A stretch of 24,219 bases of DNA from the IMG/VR virus record IMGVR_UViG_3300021137_000097, positions 1-24,219 of that record. The stretch is one strand, 5' to 3'. The stretch is from a virus. Under the pieces are notes generated by a model, which searched no databases, was not told the DNA's origin, and saw only the letters and a list, made by a program, of their open reading frames with translations. Position numbers and translations under genes: made by a program. Shown piece after piece: positions 4,119 through 10,459 of the stretch. Each line of letters starts with the position of its first letter. Position 1 is the stretch's first letter.

Positions 4119-6143
4119 ATGGCAACATACAATCGCCCAGGAGTCTATATCCAAGAAGTACCATTGCAGCAATCGGTTTCTGTGGTTGACACAGCAACCG
4201 CTATCGGTGGTTTTTCTGGAACGTTCCCTTCAGGTCCTGCAGGAGTCCCAACTCTTGTAACCACATGGACACAGTTCACAAAGACATTTGGTGGACTTAA
4301 TGACTCTTACCCAGCTACATGGGCTGTATACAACTTCTTTGCCAACCATGGCACATCGTTGTATGTAAACCGTGTAGTCAGTTCTACAGCAGCTAAAGGC
4401 GCAGTAACACTTACAGACGGTTCTGGTACTTCTACCACAACAACCGCTACTGTTACCGCAGCAGCAGCATCTGCTGGAACAATCACTTACACAGCTACCA
4501 ACACCTACTCAGCAGGCCAGACAGTATCTGTTACAGGGCTTAACGGTTCAGTAACAATTACTGGCATTACTGCAACAGGTACAGCTGTTACATACGCTAC
4601 AGCTTCAACAACTGGTCTTTCAAGCGGCCAGTCAATCACCATTACTGGTGCTACAACCTCAGGCTTTAACGGTACATACACCATCACAGGTGTTGTAACT
4701 AACACAAGCTTTACAGTTACAAGCACAGCTACTGGTTCAAGCTCAACAGCTACAGGTACTTACAGCTCAGCCTTTAACTTGACAGGTGTTGCTATTGCTA
4801 CTGCATCTAGCAGCCAGTTCACAGTTACAAGCGCAACAACAGATCGCTCAGTATCTTCAGCTTCAGGTACAGCGACAGTTGTAACAACCACACCTTCAAA
4901 CAACGCTATCGTTTTGACAGCAAAGAATGAAGGAACTTGGTCAAGCAGCTATTCTGTTTTGGCTAGCCCATCTGGTTCAACAGGTCGCTTTAACCTATCC
5001 ATTTTCTACACAGTAGTACAAAACGGACAGTCTTCTACTTCTACAGTAGAGCGTTACTCTGACTTAAGCATGACTGCTTCAGATAGCAACTACTTCATTG
5101 CAGTAATCAACTCTTACTCATCAATCGTTACTGCAGCTTTGGCATCAAACAACACAGTAACTAATGGAACAGCTATCTATGCGCCTACTACATCAGCAAC
5201 CACAGCTACAAGCTTCTCTGGTGGCCTAGACGGTACAACACCGGTAGTTCTAGACTACAAGAATGGTTGGTCTAACTTTGATAGCGTTAACAACGCGCTG
5301 GTTCTATATGCAGCAGATGCTCCATATCGCACCTTGGCAGCTGACACCTATCAGATGCACGCAGACGCAATGATCTACGCTGCAGGACGTACCGACTGCT
5401 TTGTAGTGGTTGACACACCTTCCCAGATTGCAAACGCTGCTTTGGCACAGGGTGCCGTTACATCTACAGCTCTCTTGGCTGCAGGCGCTACTTCAGGCAA
5501 CATTGCGGCTGCTTACTGGCCATGGATTAACATCCCAGATCCAACTAAGATCCAGGGTGCAACCCGTCTTCAGGCTCCAGGAGCTGCAGTTGTTGGACAA
5601 TATCTAGCAACAGATGCTTCACGTGGTCCAGCAAAGACTCCAGCTGGTTTGCTCAACAAGATTGCTCTTGCAGTCTCTACAGAGCATAGCTTTACCAACG
5701 CTGAGCTTGATGCTTTGAACACCTCTATTGACCCTGTTAACACAATTCGTCAGGCACCTGGTGCAGGAATTGTAATCATGGGTGGACGTACTTTGGACGG
5801 TAGCCCAAATAACCGTTATATCAACATCCGTCGTTCTCTTATCTACATCGAAAAGCAGATGAACAACCTTTCTCAGTTCGCTGTATTTGAGAACAATGAT
5901 TCCATTCTATGGAACAAGCTACAGACCGTTTTAGGTTCGTTCCTATTTAACTACTGGAACAGCGGAGGACTACGCGGTAGCTCTCCTTCACAGGCCTACT
6001 ACGTTAAGTGTGATGCAACAACAACAAGCTTTAGCGATATCCAAGCCGGTATTGTTAATATCCAAATTGGAGTTGCCCTACAATACCCAGCAGAGTTCGT
6101 TGTGATCACCTTGTCACAGCTAACCGGAAGCGCCTCGGCGTAA
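4119..6143 (+). CDS. Tail sheath protein with internal Ig-like insertion (674 aa)
   Basis: The N-terminus (ATYNRPGVYIQEVPLQQSV, then FFANHGTSLYVNRVV at 73-87) and the C-terminal half (SRGPAKTPAG, then INIRRSLIYIEKQM and FAVFENNDSILW) are diagnostic of contractile-tail sheath proteins. Sheath subunits polymerise around the tube and contract to drive it into the cell. Residues about 95-258 are a Thr/Ser/Ala-rich beta insertion absent from core sheaths. Within it, residues 156-206 form a module of the type 'G.s.GqsITItG...sGfNGTYtItgV....FTVtst', with a weaker copy at 122-150. AAGGAG lies 9 bases before the ATG. The 50-base gap upstream shows no clear promoter. The insertion would face the outside of the sheath. 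Confidence 0.95.
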   Translation: MATYNRPGVYIQEVPLQQSVSVVDTATAIGGFSGTFPSGPAGVPTLVTTWTQFTKTFGGLNDSYPATWAVYNFFANHGTSLYVNRVVSSTAAKGAVTLTDGSGTSTTTTATVTAAAASAGTITYTATNTYSAGQTVSVTGLNGSVTITGITATGTAVTYATASTTGLSSGQSITITGATTSGFNGTYTITGVVTNTSFTVTSTATGSSSTATGTYSSAFNLTGVAIATASSSQFTVTSATTDRSVSSASGTATVVTTTPSNNAIVLTAKNEGTWSSSYSVLASPSGSTGRFNLSIFYTVVQNGQSSTSTVERYSDLSMTASDSNYFIAVINSYSSIVTAALASNNTVTNGTAIYAPTTSATTATSFSGGLDGTTPVVLDYKNGWSNFDSVNNALVLYAADAPYRTLAADTYQMHADAMIYAAGRTDCFVVVDTPSQIANAALAQGAVTSTALLAAGATSGNIAAAYWPWINIPDPTKIQGATRLQAPGAAVVGQYLATDASRGPAKTPAGLLNKIALAVSTEHSFTNAELDALNTSIDPVNTIRQAPGAGIVIMGGRTLDGSPNNRYINIRRSLIYIEKQMNNLSQFAVFENNDSILWNKLQTVLGSFLFNYWNSGGLRGSSPSQAYYVKCDATTTSFSDIQAGIVNIQIGVALQYPAEFVVITLSQLTGSASA

Positions 6144-6157
6144 GGAGATAGATAAAA

Positions 6158-6832
6158 ATGACAACACCAGTAACTAATTCACTTAGCAGCTTACTTACTG
6201 ATCCAGTACGTAACTTTAAGTTCTTAGTAACCTTTACTCCTACAGAGAGCGGTTCAGATGTCGCTACTTATGGAACAAACTTTGGAAAGATGGGGTTTGT
6301 ATCTGTTTCCGGTCTAAGCGTAGCTACAGAAGCTATTGCTTACCGTGAAGGTGGATATAACACCAACGTCCACCAGATTCCAGGACAGTCTGCTTTCACC
6401 CCAATCACCCTCTCTAAGGGTGTCATGTTGGGACAAGGCGACAACGCTCTTTGGATGAAGCGACTATTCTCAGTTCTTACTACAGGAACACCTACCTCTA
6501 CAGGTGCTGCTTCTGGCGTAGGCGGAGGATTCCGTTGCAACATTGATATCCAGGTTCTTAGCCATCCAAACCCACAGGCTACAACTGGACAGACAATTAA
6601 CCTAAACGGTGCTGCAACAGGTACAGTTGCACCTACACCTGTTGATCAGCACACCTCGCTACGATTCCGTATCTACCGTGCATGGATCACAAGCTTGTCA
6701 TACTCTGGCCTAGATGCTGGTTCAAACAGCCTCATGGTTGAAGAGATGACAATCGTCCATGAAGGTTGGGACGTATCGTACGCAACTAACTACACATTAG
6801 CAGGAACAGCCCCAGCAATCTATAACGGCTAA
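6158..6832 (+). CDS. Tail tube protein, T4 gp19-like (224 aa)
   Basis: The motif series DPVRNFKFLVTF (15-26), MGFVSVSGLSVATEAIAYREGG and HQIPGQSAFTPITLSKGV is characteristic of the gp19/tail-tube family of contractile tails; the C-terminus EEMTIVHEGWDVSY also fits. Subunits stack as rings to form the rigid tube through which DNA passes. The gene directly follows the sheath, with AAGGAG upstream of the ATG. Residues about 110-150 form a Gly/Thr-rich loop (TSTGAASGVGGG and beyond) longer than in minimal tubes, probably between beta strands. Assignment is secure from both sequence and order. Confidence 0.93.
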   Translation: MTTPVTNSLSSLLTDPVRNFKFLVTFTPTESGSDVATYGTNFGKMGFVSVSGLSVATEAIAYREGGYNTNVHQIPGQSAFTPITLSKGVMLGQGDNALWMKRLFSVLTTGTPTSTGAASGVGGGFRCNIDIQVLSHPNPQATTGQTINLNGAATGTVAPTPVDQHTSLRFRIYRAWITSLSYSGLDAGSNSLMVEEMTIVHEGWDVSYATNYTLAGTAPAIYNG

Positions 6833-6856: not shown

Positions 6857-7669
6857 ATGACTAATACAACGACTATAACTGCGGAACAAGATCCTGCGCT
6901 AATGAACAAGCTTGCGCAGAAAGCAATGTCTGAGCAGGAGGCAACTGTTGCGGCCGTAAAGCCGGAAATAAAGTTGCCTCCTTCTCCAGAGGTTGCATTA
7001 CCTGGTGGGCTCTATGATCCTTTCAGTGGACTTATCTCCACTGCCGAGGTTCGTGAGCTTACAGGTGCTGATGAGGAAGCTGTTGCAAAGGTGGGCAATA
7101 TCGGCAAGGCTCTATTAACTATCTTAGATAGGGCCACAGTTAAGATTGGCGATGAGCCGGCTACTAAGGATCTCTTAGACGCCCTCTACGCTGGAGACCG
7201 AGAGATGATTCTCTTGGCTATCCGTAAGATAACTTTTGGTTCAGAGGTGCAGGTCGGCCCAGCCGCGTGTGGATCATGCGGTCTTGAGCAGGTCTTTGAT
7301 ATTGATCTGGACAAGGATGTAAAGGTAAAGGCACTTGAAGGTGACCGTCAGTTCACGGTAAAGTGCAATATCGGAGAGGTGTCCGTAGTACTTCCTACAG
7401 GAACCACTCAAAAAGAAATGATTAACTCTACTGACAAAACCTCAGCTGAATTGGATACAATTCTGCTAAAGAACTGTGTTAAGTCTATTAACGGCGTAGA
7501 GGTCATTGACCCAGCCGTAGTTAGAAACCTAGGTCTTAAGGACCGTAGGGCTTTGCTCAGTGAGATCACAAGTCGAAATCCTGGACCACAACTCGGAGAT
7601 ATCAAGAAAGAATGTCAGTCTTGCGGCACGGAGGTACCGCTTCCGCTAACTTTAGCGGGCTTGTTTTAA
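6857..7669 (+). CDS. Tail assembly chaperone, T4 gp26-like with zinc ribbon (270 aa, unshifted product)
   Basis: It sits between tube and tape measure, the position of tail assembly chaperones. EVRELTGADEEAVAK (64-78) and the following helices match the T4 baseplate/gp26-type family found in many myoviruses. Two CxxC pairs, C138/C141 (CGSCG) and C253/C256 (CQSCG), would bind one zinc ion and bracket a beta domain. The frame ends at TAA 7667-7669 inside TTTTAAAAA. An open frame without its own ribosome binding site continues in the +1 frame from that point, which suggests a frameshifted longer form (see the next entries). AAGGAAAA lies upstream of the ATG. Confidence 0.8.
   Translation: MTNTTTITAEQDPALMNKLAQKAMSEQEATVAAVKPEIKLPPSPEVALPGGLYDPFSGLISTAEVRELTGADEEAVAKVGNIGKALLTILDRATVKIGDEPATKDLLDALYAGDREMILLAIRKITFGSEVQVGPAACGSCGLEQVFDIDLDKDVKVKALEGDRQFTVKCNIGEVSVVLPTGTTQKEMINSTDKTSAELDTILLKNCVKSINGVEVIDPAVVRNLGLKDRRALLSEITSRNPGPQLGDIKKECQSCGTEVPLPLTLAGLF
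7643..7658 (+). promoter_or_regulatory. Stem-loop just 5' of the shift site
   Basis: CCGCTAA (7643-7649) is perfectly complementary to TTAGCGG (7652-7658), realistically a 6-bp stem with a 4-base loop. It ends 5 bases before the TTTT of the presumed shift site. It could stimulate frameshifting from the 5' side. With the U-rich GCTTGTTTT that follows, it could also act as a weak terminator or attenuator before the tape measure. Confidence 0.4.
7664..7669 (+). other. Probable programmed +1 frameshift site (TTT TAA)
   Basis: In the chaperone frame the last codons are TTG TTT TAA. A phenylalanyl-tRNA on TTT (7664-7666) can slip forward one base onto an identical TTT (7665-7667) while TAA waits in the A site, the same logic as the RF2 CTT-TGA shift. 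A TAG at 7653-7655 in the new frame confines any shift to the few codons at this site. Confidence 0.6.
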
Positions 7670-7817
7670 AAACGAGATTGACTACCCACTCTTGATGGAA
7701 GCCTATGAGTACATCTCAATAGGTTTTCCAGGGTGGACTTTAGAAGATATACGTTCTCTAAATAATAGAGAACGACTTATGTGGTTAGAAAAGTTTAGGA
7801 ATAGACCAAGGCGGTGA
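7665..7817 (+). CDS. Frameshifted C-terminal extension of the tail assembly chaperone (49 added residues)
   Basis: Reading +1 from TTT at 7665, codons run to TGA at 7815-7817 and encode KNEIDYPLLMEAYEYISIG followed by FPGWTLEDIRSLNNRERLMW and a basic end. This is a well-formed, hydrophilic-helical sequence typical of the downstream part of two-frame tail chaperones. Joined to the 270-aa upstream part it gives about 319 aa. The only ATG (7695) has no ribosome binding site, so independent start is unlikely. The two products would bind the tape measure during tail assembly, the long one in smaller amount. A sequencing error in the T/A homopolymers is the main alternative. Confidence 0.65.
   Translation, partial: FKNEIDYPLLMEAYEYISIGFPGWTLEDIRSLNNRERLMWLEKFRNRPRR
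7808..7816 (+). promoter_or_regulatory. Strong ribosome binding site of the tape measure gene
   Basis: AAGGCGGTG here, continuing into AT, matches the 16S complement AAGGAGGTGAT at all but one position. It overlaps the end of the chaperone extension and ends 6 bases before CTG 7823; the AGGCGG core (7809-7814) is 8 bases from it. It is too far (over 90 bases) from the first in-frame ATG at 7910 to serve that codon. Confidence 0.7.
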
Positions 7818-7822
7818 TTTAA

Positions 7823-10459
7823 CTGAGCGACAATTTAGGTATCTCCTCTGATGGGGCAAAACTACCTAGTGTTAATGGCAAGGCTCTCTTTGAGGATTTC
7901 CCCAAAGAGATGCTTCGCCTGTTCAAAGAGGTCGAGAAGTATGTAGACGTTATCTCTAAGAAGTGGTTAGACACCCTTAAAGAAACAGAGAACGCTACAA
8001 AGGGCATGGCTAAAGATAAGCCTGGCTCAGGCCGCCTTGGTTTAGCCTCAGTTACTAAAGGACAAGCAGTAGCCGGCGCAGCTATGTTTGCTGGATGGTT
8101 TGCGTATAACGCAACACCGAGCACTATGGCAGCTGTCACACAAAGAATTGCGGCTGATTCCTTTGCTGGACTTAGCGGCATGTCTTCTCGCCAAGCAATC
8201 ACACAATCTAACGCTGCTATTGGTGGCGGAGCTACAAGCGCTATGGGCGGCACGTTAGCTGCTCAAGCTTTGTTCTACAGCGGATACTCTGCCAACTCTG
8301 CAAGCTCTCAGACTATTATGGGTCAGCTTGCTGGCATGAGCGCTATGTCTGGCATGTCAAACCAGCAGGCCGCGGGTGCTGCTGGCGCAATGAACGGCAT
8401 GAACTTCTTACGCATGGGCGTAAACATTCGTGACTCTAAGGGCAACCTAAAGCCTATGGACCAGATTATTAATCAGGTCTATAACTTCATGTACGGTGGC
8501 CGTAAGATCACTAAAGAGCAAGCCGCTACGGTATACAATACCAGCAGTAAAGGCTATGCTGATATCTCAACGATCGCAAATGGCGATCCTAATCTTATTG
8601 CTTTGATTCAATCTGGTATTGTAGCCAGAGCTTCTGCCTCTTCTGCCTCTGCATTTAGCAGCGCTATGAAGAGTAAAGATCCAAACCAAATGCTTAACCT
8701 TATGGGTGTAGATCAGAGCAGCCCTATTCGTTCTAACTTCCGCGCAGCTTCTGCGCAGGCTAAGATACTTCAATCTACAGAGCAAGGCCTTGTGGGCGGG
8801 TATAACGTTGCTCAAAGGACTAATGCCGATCTAACAAGCGGGTTTGCTGACCTACTTAATGTTCTTGGCCCTGTTACTGAAGCCTTTATGACGCTCAAAG
8901 GAGCGCTACAAACCTTCCCTAATACGGGCGGGGTTGGCAGCACAATAAGCAGCCTAGGAAGTACAGCAGCAAGTATTGGTAAAGACTACCTTGCTTATAA
9001 AGCAGTAGGTAAATATGCTCCAAAACTTTTAGAAAAAGCCGGTGGAAGCGCCGCACTTCGTACTGCTGGAAAGAGCATCCTTTCTCGTATTGGTGGGTGG
9101 CTTGAAGCAGATGCATTACCTGTAGCAGAGGATGTCGTTGCAGTGGGTGGGCCTCGTAACTATGGTGGGTTTGGTACAGGCGGCCCAGCACCATCCTCCA
9201 CTAACGGTATTCTTCCTGTTCCTCAAGGCACACCTATTACACAACAATACGGACATAACGGACATCCAGGAACAGACTTCGGTGTTAATTTAGGTACTCC
9301 TATTAAGTCTTTTAAAGACGGTGTTGTATCTATTATTGGAAACGAAGCTAATGGCTACGGTAACTGGGTTCAGGTAACTCACAATGATGGTACAGCAACC
9401 CGCTACGCTCACCTACAAAGCATCTCAACTACCCGTGGGCAAAAAGTAACGGCTGGAGATGTTATTGCTAAGTCTGGATCTACCGGACACTCTACCGGAC
9501 CTCACCTTCACTTTGAAGTATTACAAAACGGTAAGAAAGTAAACAGTACTCAGTATGTTATGGGTGCAGGCACAGCCACAAACGCCACCTCCCAAACTAC
9601 CTCAGCTAACCAATCCTCATCAAAAGCCGGACACTCTAACTATATTACTAATAAGGGCTCAAGCTATGCGGCTCTTGTGGGAGATCTAAATGGGTTGTCC
9701 AGCTCAGATATAACATCAAGCATTGCTTCACTAGGAAGTTCTTCTAGTAGCTCTGCTATCAATATGTTTGGAAACACTGTTGCTCACAACCTTGGCAATG
9801 GAAAAGCCCTTTCCTTTGTTAAGGGTAAAACATCTGTTACTCCTGGAGTTATTCTAGGAACAGGAAGCTCACAGCAGTGGGCTAAGACCTTGCTTACTAA
9901 GCTTGGAAAGCCGCTTACTAAGCAGAACATTGCTGCCCTCACAACTTGGGCTGCTTGGGAAGGCGGGCAGTGGCACAACTCAGCTCACTACAACCCACTT
10001 AATACAACCCAACCAGCCAATGGCGCTACCAATATGAACAAGGAAGGCGTTAAGTCTTACCTTAACTGGGATCAAGGATACACAGCTACAATTCAAACTC
10101 TTAAAAATGGAAGATACGGAGCTATCCTATCTGCTCTTACAAAGGGAGATGACACAGCTTCTGTACTAAAGGCTGTGGATCACTCACCGTGGGGTACACA
10201 TATTCCAGGTTATGGTGGGCCTAGCAATGGAATGAACGTAGGGACTGTAGGTCGTGGAAGCCCAGCCTCTACGGTTAACCTTGGATCTTTGAGCAGCTCT
10301 GGGTCTTCGTCTGCTAATATTAACCTAAGCATGTCTGTTACTATTCAAAACGCTTCAGTTCCTGAGACTGAACGTCTTGTGCATGTAGTTGCTAACAGGT
10401 TAAAGGCAGAACTATCTAAGAGCCCTTATGCATTAAGTAGTATTGGAAGTGGATTATAA
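7823..10459 (+). CDS. Tape measure protein with M23 peptidase and lysozyme-like domains (878 aa from CTG)
   Basis: The open frame begins right after TAA 7820-7822 with CTG 7823, served by a near-perfect ribosome binding site. The first in-frame ATG is 7910 (849 aa; residue numbers below count from it) and has only a GAGGA 13 bases upstream. The N-terminal half is Ala/Met/Ser-rich and helical, as tape measures are. Residues about 435-545 form an M23 metallopeptidase: HPGTD (H452, D456), YAH (H501) and HLHFE (H532, H534). Residues about 670-780 form a lysozyme/transglycosylase-like domain with WEGG (E684), NPLNTT and GYTATIQTLKNGRY. It would fix tail length and, on injection, cut peptide and glycan bonds of peptidoglycan. 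TAATG couples it to the next gene. Confidence 0.85.
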   Translation: MSDNLGISSDGAKLPSVNGKALFEDFPKEMLRLFKEVEKYVDVISKKWLDTLKETENATKGMAKDKPGSGRLGLASVTKGQAVAGAAMFAGWFAYNATPSTMAAVTQRIAADSFAGLSGMSSRQAITQSNAAIGGGATSAMGGTLAAQALFYSGYSANSASSQTIMGQLAGMSAMSGMSNQQAAGAAGAMNGMNFLRMGVNIRDSKGNLKPMDQIINQVYNFMYGGRKITKEQAATVYNTSSKGYADISTIANGDPNLIALIQSGIVARASASSASAFSSAMKSKDPNQMLNLMGVDQSSPIRSNFRAASAQAKILQSTEQGLVGGYNVAQRTNADLTSGFADLLNVLGPVTEAFMTLKGALQTFPNTGGVGSTISSLGSTAASIGKDYLAYKAVGKYAPKLLEKAGGSAALRTAGKSILSRIGGWLEADALPVAEDVVAVGGPRNYGGFGTGGPAPSSTNGILPVPQGTPITQQYGHNGHPGTDFGVNLGTPIKSFKDGVVSIIGNEANGYGNWVQVTHNDGTATRYAHLQSISTTRGQKVTAGDVIAKSGSTGHSTGPHLHFEVLQNGKKVNSTQYVMGAGTATNATSQTTSANQSSSKAGHSNYITNKGSSYAALVGDLNGLSSSDITSSIASLGSSSSSSAINMFGNTVAHNLGNGKALSFVKGKTSVTPGVILGTGSSQQWAKTLLTKLGKPLTKQNIAALTTWAAWEGGQWHNSAHYNPLNTTQPANGATNMNKEGVKSYLNWDQGYTATIQTLKNGRYGAILSALTKGDDTASVLKAVDHSPWGTHIPGYGGPSNGMNVGTVGRGSPASTVNLGSLSSSGSSSANINLSMSVTIQNASVPETERLVHVVANRLKAELSKSPYALSSIGSGL

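Follow-up and report, generated by a model that had tools for sequence, protein, structure and literature searches.

A very probable +1 ribosomal frameshift at a conserved UUU_Y site in a putative phage tail assembly chaperone gene of the PF12322 family

Tail assembly chaperones of the lambda G/GT type are encoded between the tail tube and the tape measure genes and are made as a short protein and as a longer form carrying a C-terminal extension from another frame. The G/GT shift is -1 at X_XXY_YYZ. The majority of frameshifts known in tail chaperones are -1, and for +1 sites there is no accepted general motif. The tail assembly chaperone of the archaeal myovirus HSTV-2 is reported as very likely made by a +1 shift (PMC5009743). 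The tetranucleotide UUU_Ynn is known to be prone to +1 shifts in bacteria, and in E. coli UUU_U shifts less than CUU_U (PMC5009743). In other genes, Yersinia YopN-TyeA, Mesorhizobium FseA and influenza PA-X (UCC_UUU_CGU) shift with UUU in the P site and require no stop codon, and in YopN-TyeA and PA-X the fourth base is a pyrimidine (PMC5009743). The prfB gene of E. coli, encoding RF2, slips forward at CUU_UGA in a stop-dependent and regulatory manner, with a duplex between a Shine-Dalgarno sequence and the rRNA just upstream of the E site. Hairpins upstream of the slip site stimulate +1 shifting on 70S ribosomes and in yeast, and engineered hairpins at this place mimic the Shine-Dalgarno duplex on 70S ribosomes (PMC6321510, PMC3639245).

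We analysed a stretch of virus DNA of 24,219 nucleotides (IMG/VR record IMGVR_UViG_3300021137_000097), the whole of which is here called the window. It contains a contractile-tail module with a sheath, a gp19-like tube, a PF12322 protein and a tape measure that includes an M23 peptidase domain. As in the lambda G/GT type, the PF12322 gene lies between the tail tube and the tape-measure gene, and a short protein is followed by a C-terminal extension in another frame (Table 1). The 0-frame gene ends with GGC TTG TTT TAA AAA, and the +1 frame is open from 7656 to the TGA at 7815-7817. A slip at TTT (7664-7666) leads into 49 codons, KNEIDYPLLMEAYEYISIGFPGWTLEDIRSLNNRERLMWLEKFRNRPRR, and gives a product of 319 aa. 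A preliminary description, made from the sequence alone, had reported a chaperone ending at TAA, an open +1 frame beyond it and an upstream TAG that bounds the shift, all of which held; its 50-codon frame and product of about 319 aa were right to within one codon. We conclude that a programmed +1 ribosomal frameshift very likely produces a GT-like tail assembly chaperone at this locus, for which no protein or reporter data exist. Unlike lambda G/GT, the inferred shift is +1 at UUU_Y, the protein is a PF12322 member with two CxxC pairs, and a hairpin lies on the 5' side of the site.

Table 1. Coordinates in the window of the tail genes and of the elements around the proposed slip site.
Feature	Position	Strand	Remarks
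Sheath gene	4119-6143
Tail tube gene (gp19-like), next upstream of the PF12322 gene	6158..6832	+	Phage_T4_gp19, E 8.2e-22
0-frame gene, 270 aa	6857..7669	+	PF12322 T4_baseplate / phrog_150; likely G-like tail assembly chaperone
Hairpin CCGCTA-ACTT-TAGCGG	7643..7658	+	Arms 7643-7648 / 7653-7658; proposed stimulator; 5 nt between its 3' end and the slip codon
TAG in the +1 frame	7653..7655	+	5' bound of the shift, from the sequence
Slip site UUU_U	7664..7667	+	P-site tRNA-Phe would move from 7664-7666 to 7665-7667; UUU_Y in 105/105 relatives
0-frame stop TAA	7667..7669	+	Would occupy the A site during the slip; most relatives have CGN or CAR here
+1 extension, 49 aa + TGA	7668..7817	+	T-like domain; motif PGWTLEDIRSLxxRERLxWL
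Tape-measure gene with M23 peptidase domain	7823..10459	+	Probable CTG start at 7823 behind AAGGCGG

The tape-measure frame of the window opens with CTG AGC GAC (CTG at 7823-7825), and no ATG, GTG or TTG is suitably placed. Relatives outside the subclade of the window have an ATG at exactly the same position; the subclade has CTG, which is also found in three loci (L003, L005 and L007).

The protein encoded at 6857-7669 was assigned to PF12322 by Pfam (E 8.6e-11, 42.4 bits against a gathering cut-off of 24.5) and to phrog_150 in the PHROG search (E 5.9e-10). Its AF2 model had a pLDDT of 85.8, and the best match in the PDB was the HK97 tail assembly chaperone 2OB9 (Foldseek probability 0.97, E 0.12), with a Z of 6.4 over about 86 residues. 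Taken by itself this match is of middling strength; together with the position of the gene and the presence of the extension it supports a role as a G/GT chaperone. The 270-aa protein is thus likely a G-like tail assembly chaperone, its function being inferred from gene position, extension and predicted fold, and the chaperone role given in the preliminary description is supported. A weaker fold match was obtained with ORF19 of a PICI-like element of Vibrio cholerae (PDB 5IR0, Z 4.0), a hint that a phage satellite protein may possibly resemble a tail chaperone.

Relatives were collected from two IMG/VR scans, from isolated Streptomyces phages and from bacterial genomes, down to about 32% identity. 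This gave 105 distinct readable sequences, with four Streptomyces phages counted in and the bacterial loci left out; they are not independent samples. The extension was found in the +1 frame in all 105. Its dN/dS had a median of about 0.22, whereas the identical DNA read in frame 0 gave about 1.6, and the most variable codon position was the third position of the +1 frame. G-W and R-E-R were invariant in the alignment. Since the +1 relation is kept in 105/105 relatives with this low median dN/dS, it is not due to chance. The sequences establish the frame relation and show that the extension is under purifying selection and evolves as a protein. The AlphaFold model of the extension consists of three helices (pLDDT 89.2). 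Comparison of this model with the PDB gave only matches with Z below 3, which are too weak to exclude anything, and a PHROG search with the window extension alone found nothing significant.

A distant bacterial homologue in Streptomyces sp. AP-93 (L186 2501-3178) ends with TTC TTC GAC CTG TAC and has neither the UUU nor a visible extension. It is possibly decayed, or it may belong to a different tail system.

The last 0-frame Phe codon was UUU followed by C or U in every one of the 105 relatives, and only 9% of the other in-frame UUU codons of those genes were followed by a pyrimidine. After a move of one base in the 3' direction the tRNA-Phe would pair with UUC (94 relatives) or UUU (11 relatives), in each case perfectly. 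The codon after UUU was CGN in 78, CAR in 15, a stop in 11 and CTC in 1. A 0-frame stop lies 1-4 codons downstream of UUU in all 105, and 2-4 codons past it in most relatives, whose A-site codon is CGN or CAR. The A-site codon changed class at least 8 times on a 62-protein tree while UUU_Y stayed constant, and the stop in the A site arose twice, one of these origins being the subclade of the window. Four high-GC bacterial genomes have kept UUU CGC or UUU CCG, where the gene has no other UUU and has 28 UUC elsewhere, and the Streptomyces phages have UUU CGC or UUU CAG at the site despite their preference for UUC. The UUU_Y signal is therefore established by the sequences, and from the turnover in the A site under a constant UUU_Y it follows that UUU_Y is the requirement, and that a stop is one among several slow codons able to fill the A site. 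That stop, CGN and CAR are slowly decoded is itself inferred, and the host and its tRNAs are not known.

The site resembles that of HSTV-2 in the +1 direction, in the annotated join and in having UUU CGC close to the 0-frame stop, and differs from it in that the HSTV-2 protein has no match to PF12322 and that kinship between the two extensions has not been shown. The HSTV-2 join (L172 14982-15813) contains TCC TTT CGC, a sequence of the type of the PA-X cassette of influenza, UCC_UUU_CGN. Upstream of the slip codon we also observed a GAG at window 7631-7633 (codon -11) in 72/72 sequences of the window clade, with GAA in none, and several further codons as far as -7 show unusually little variation in this clade.

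The folding stability of the hairpin was compared with synonymous shuffles that preserve the protein and the codon usage of the gene. It was more stable than the shuffles (p<0.05) in 49/49 distinct contexts of the window clade, with a mean z of -4.4. In a sliding scan along the gene of 46 less similar members, the hairpin position had a mean z of -3.52, the lowest of 200 positions; the background more than 12 codons away averaged -0.12 (sd 0.28, minimum -1.17). Two registers occur, CCGCTA/TAGCGG and CTGCCA/TGGCAG (CCG..GCG and CCA..GCA), in which the 3' arm occupies the identical six positions and the 5' arm is displaced by 3 nt. Base pairs were kept in 183 of 186 cases, and in 57 of 60 in the shifted register. 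These results show that the hairpin is conserved and kept by selection beyond that on the protein sequence, in the window clade only. The four Streptomyces phages have hairpins of the CCCAC/GTGGG type with borderline significance, in BRock at 7 nt from UUU, and in the clade of 40-48% identity no convincing hairpin was found (mean z -0.86, significant in 5/14). Because it is unconvincing or borderline beyond the window clade, we regard the hairpin as a putative lineage-specific enhancer outside the minimal site. Structure downstream of the site was weak (mean z -1.8 in the window clade and -0.8 in distant relatives, for 60 nt from 15 nt past UUU), and no claim is made for it.

That the natural hairpin stimulates the shift is inferred, without reporter data. 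Like the duplex in prfB, it lies just upstream of the E site of a forward slip, but it is an mRNA hairpin and not a Shine-Dalgarno:rRNA duplex. Engineered upstream hairpins likewise are stable, adjoin the E site and raised +1 shifting in the constructs concerned (PMC3639245, PMC6321510); those are designed, whereas the element of the window is natural and conserved. For YopN-TyeA, FseA and PA-X no upstream hairpin is reported in the literature searched, and we found no natural +1 case with an upstream hairpin in the open-licence literature searched. The kind of signal is known, and what is new is the combination of UUU_Y, a 5' hairpin and the PF12322 family.

Several other explanations have to be weighed. 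A -2 frameshift as in Mu would lead from the slip site into the same frame with one residue more, and the frame relation does not distinguish it from +1; Mu-type -2 shifts do occur in tail chaperones. However, it would put tRNA-Phe on UGU, UCU or UAU, with at best two of three bases paired, and would leave the pyrimidine after UUU in 105/105 relatives unrequired, so that we consider it very unlikely. The preliminary description had proposed the +1 slip of tRNA-Phe from UUU to UUU and held a -2 slip to be less likely, and both points are supported by the comparison of these codons with UUC/UUU in every relative. It had also drawn an analogy to RF2, and an RF2-like, stop-dependent +1 shift controlled by termination efficiency is favoured by the stop in the A site of the window and ten other distinct relatives, UUU being a permitted P-site codon ahead of a stop (PMC10885494). 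Against this, the A site holds a sense codon in 94 of the 105 relatives, the stops are two later origins on the tree, and inspection of the aligned junctions showed no conserved Shine-Dalgarno-like sequence near the E site, where the hairpin is found in its place. Strict stop dependence is thus very improbable and the analogy was half right: the stop is not essential. Where the preliminary description had suggested looking for conservation of TTTTAA and of both frames in related phages, both frames were kept throughout, as was UUU_Y, but the stop directly after UUU in only 11/105.

The extension has been annotated as a separate ORF with an internal start in BRock, LuckySocke, GiJojo and S-RIM8, and could accordingly be a small gene of its own or a product of termination and reinitiation. 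In 40 of 103 relatives, however, the +1 frame contains no ATG, GTG or TTG, hence no possible start, from the upstream stop up to the conserved GW motif, and in 53 of 103 it contains no ATG; no conserved start codon belonging to the extension was found in any relative retaining it, and a separate gene would leave the conservation of UUU_Y unexplained. This reading is very unlikely. The hairpin in turn might be a transcription terminator or another element unrelated to the shift, since the sequence next to it in the window, GCUUGUUUUAA, follows it in a manner reminiscent of a weak intrinsic terminator. This is unlikely, as the hairpin is kept in relatives without a U run, for example GATCTCTTTCGAGAG, and its 3' end is fixed relative to UUU while the 5' arm shifts by 3 nt. 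Lastly, an indel from sequencing or assembly, or transcriptional slippage on the T/A run present in the window (TTTTAAAAA), is all but excluded by the frame relation common to independent assemblies and isolated phages and by the TTTCG without a run in most relatives. Both scenarios that would have refuted the preliminary description, a one-base error and a separate gene with its own start, were therefore not borne out; it had overlooked the conserved hairpin that precedes the slip site by 5 nt.

For the programmed +1 shift, we propose that most ribosomes would terminate after Phe270 and release the short G-like protein. The slip would occur with UUU in the P site and a slow codon in the A site, UAA in the window and CGN or CAR in most relatives. 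Peptidyl-tRNA-Phe would then step one base in the 3' direction, leaving UUU for the UUU or UUC that overlaps it, and reading would continue into the 49-aa helical extension to give the long GT-like form. The hairpin would refold behind the ribosome and favour the forward slip, occupying the location that the Shine-Dalgarno duplex has in the RF2 mRNA. By analogy with lambda G/GT, the short form may coat the tape measure protein and the extension may recruit tail tube subunits. The occurrence and the efficiency of the shift, like these protein functions, are inferred.

The frames of more distant PF12322 members were assessed by eye, each in a single genome or a few, and carry less certainty than those of the 105. 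An open +1 frame after UUU_Y was seen in SP-15, LIS04, Streptococcus phage GXN1, LR756508 and Microcystis phage Mel-JY01, and a -1 extension after U_UUU_UUN in RaK2, PBECO4, BF, PA5oct, XacN1, RAS14, apparently LR756511, and cyanophage S-RIM8. Jumbo phage loci (L092 and L173-L177) contain PF12322 genes with a terminal U_UUU_UUN, an open -1 frame and an extension with the same motif, which are not annotated as frameshifts. In S-RIM8 (L188 2462-3360), gp26 ends with AGT TTT TTC GGA TAG and a 45-aa annotated 'gp51' lies in the -1 frame, so that an unannotated -1 frameshift at U_UUU_UUC is likely; no description of a gp26-gp51 frameshift in cyanophages was found in the open-licence literature searched.

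In T4, gp26 and gp51 both match PF12322 and gp51 has a C-terminal tail resembling the extension, but they are encoded by two separate genes without a frameshift. Residues 147-246 of gp51 match phrog_634 (1.2e-23), as does the -1 extension of S-RIM8 (4e-21), and because of this shared match gp51 looks like a PF12322 domain fused to the extension and gp26 like the domain alone. The window extension itself did not match phrog_634. In profile comparisons window-type extensions matched distant extensions at about 80%, and distant extensions matched gp51 at about 80%; when the window extension was compared directly with the tails of T4 gp51, the value was 7%, which is not significant. Possibly gp26 corresponds to G and gp51 to a fused GT; between the window extension and gp51 the direct link is weak. 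A chaperone role of the two proteins is not new, as gp26 and gp51 are already annotated in phage Konradin as assembly chaperones of the tape measure protein; new is the proposal that they represent G and a fused GT. A bolder joint reading would be that the locus has a selected natural +1 signal in which a hairpin refolding 5 nt behind UUU_Y replaces the Shine-Dalgarno stimulator, and that the PF12322 G/GT pair is made in at least three ways, by +1 at UUU_Y, by -1 at U_UUU_UUN and from two genes in T4 (gp26/gp51). We lean towards this reading by a narrow margin.

The fixation of UUU_Y across a very diverse phage family amid turnover in the A site distinguishes the requirements of the shift from the features that can vary. 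If the hairpin has the proposed role, it would provide a natural example of a stimulator known until now from designed constructs. Many phage records miss the extension or annotate a stray small gene in its place. The view across the family leads to a testable proposal for T4, with gp26 as G and gp51 as fused GT, and three-way production of G/GT in PF12322, if true, would explain the apparent lack of a G-T frameshift in T4, which has long been regarded as an exception.
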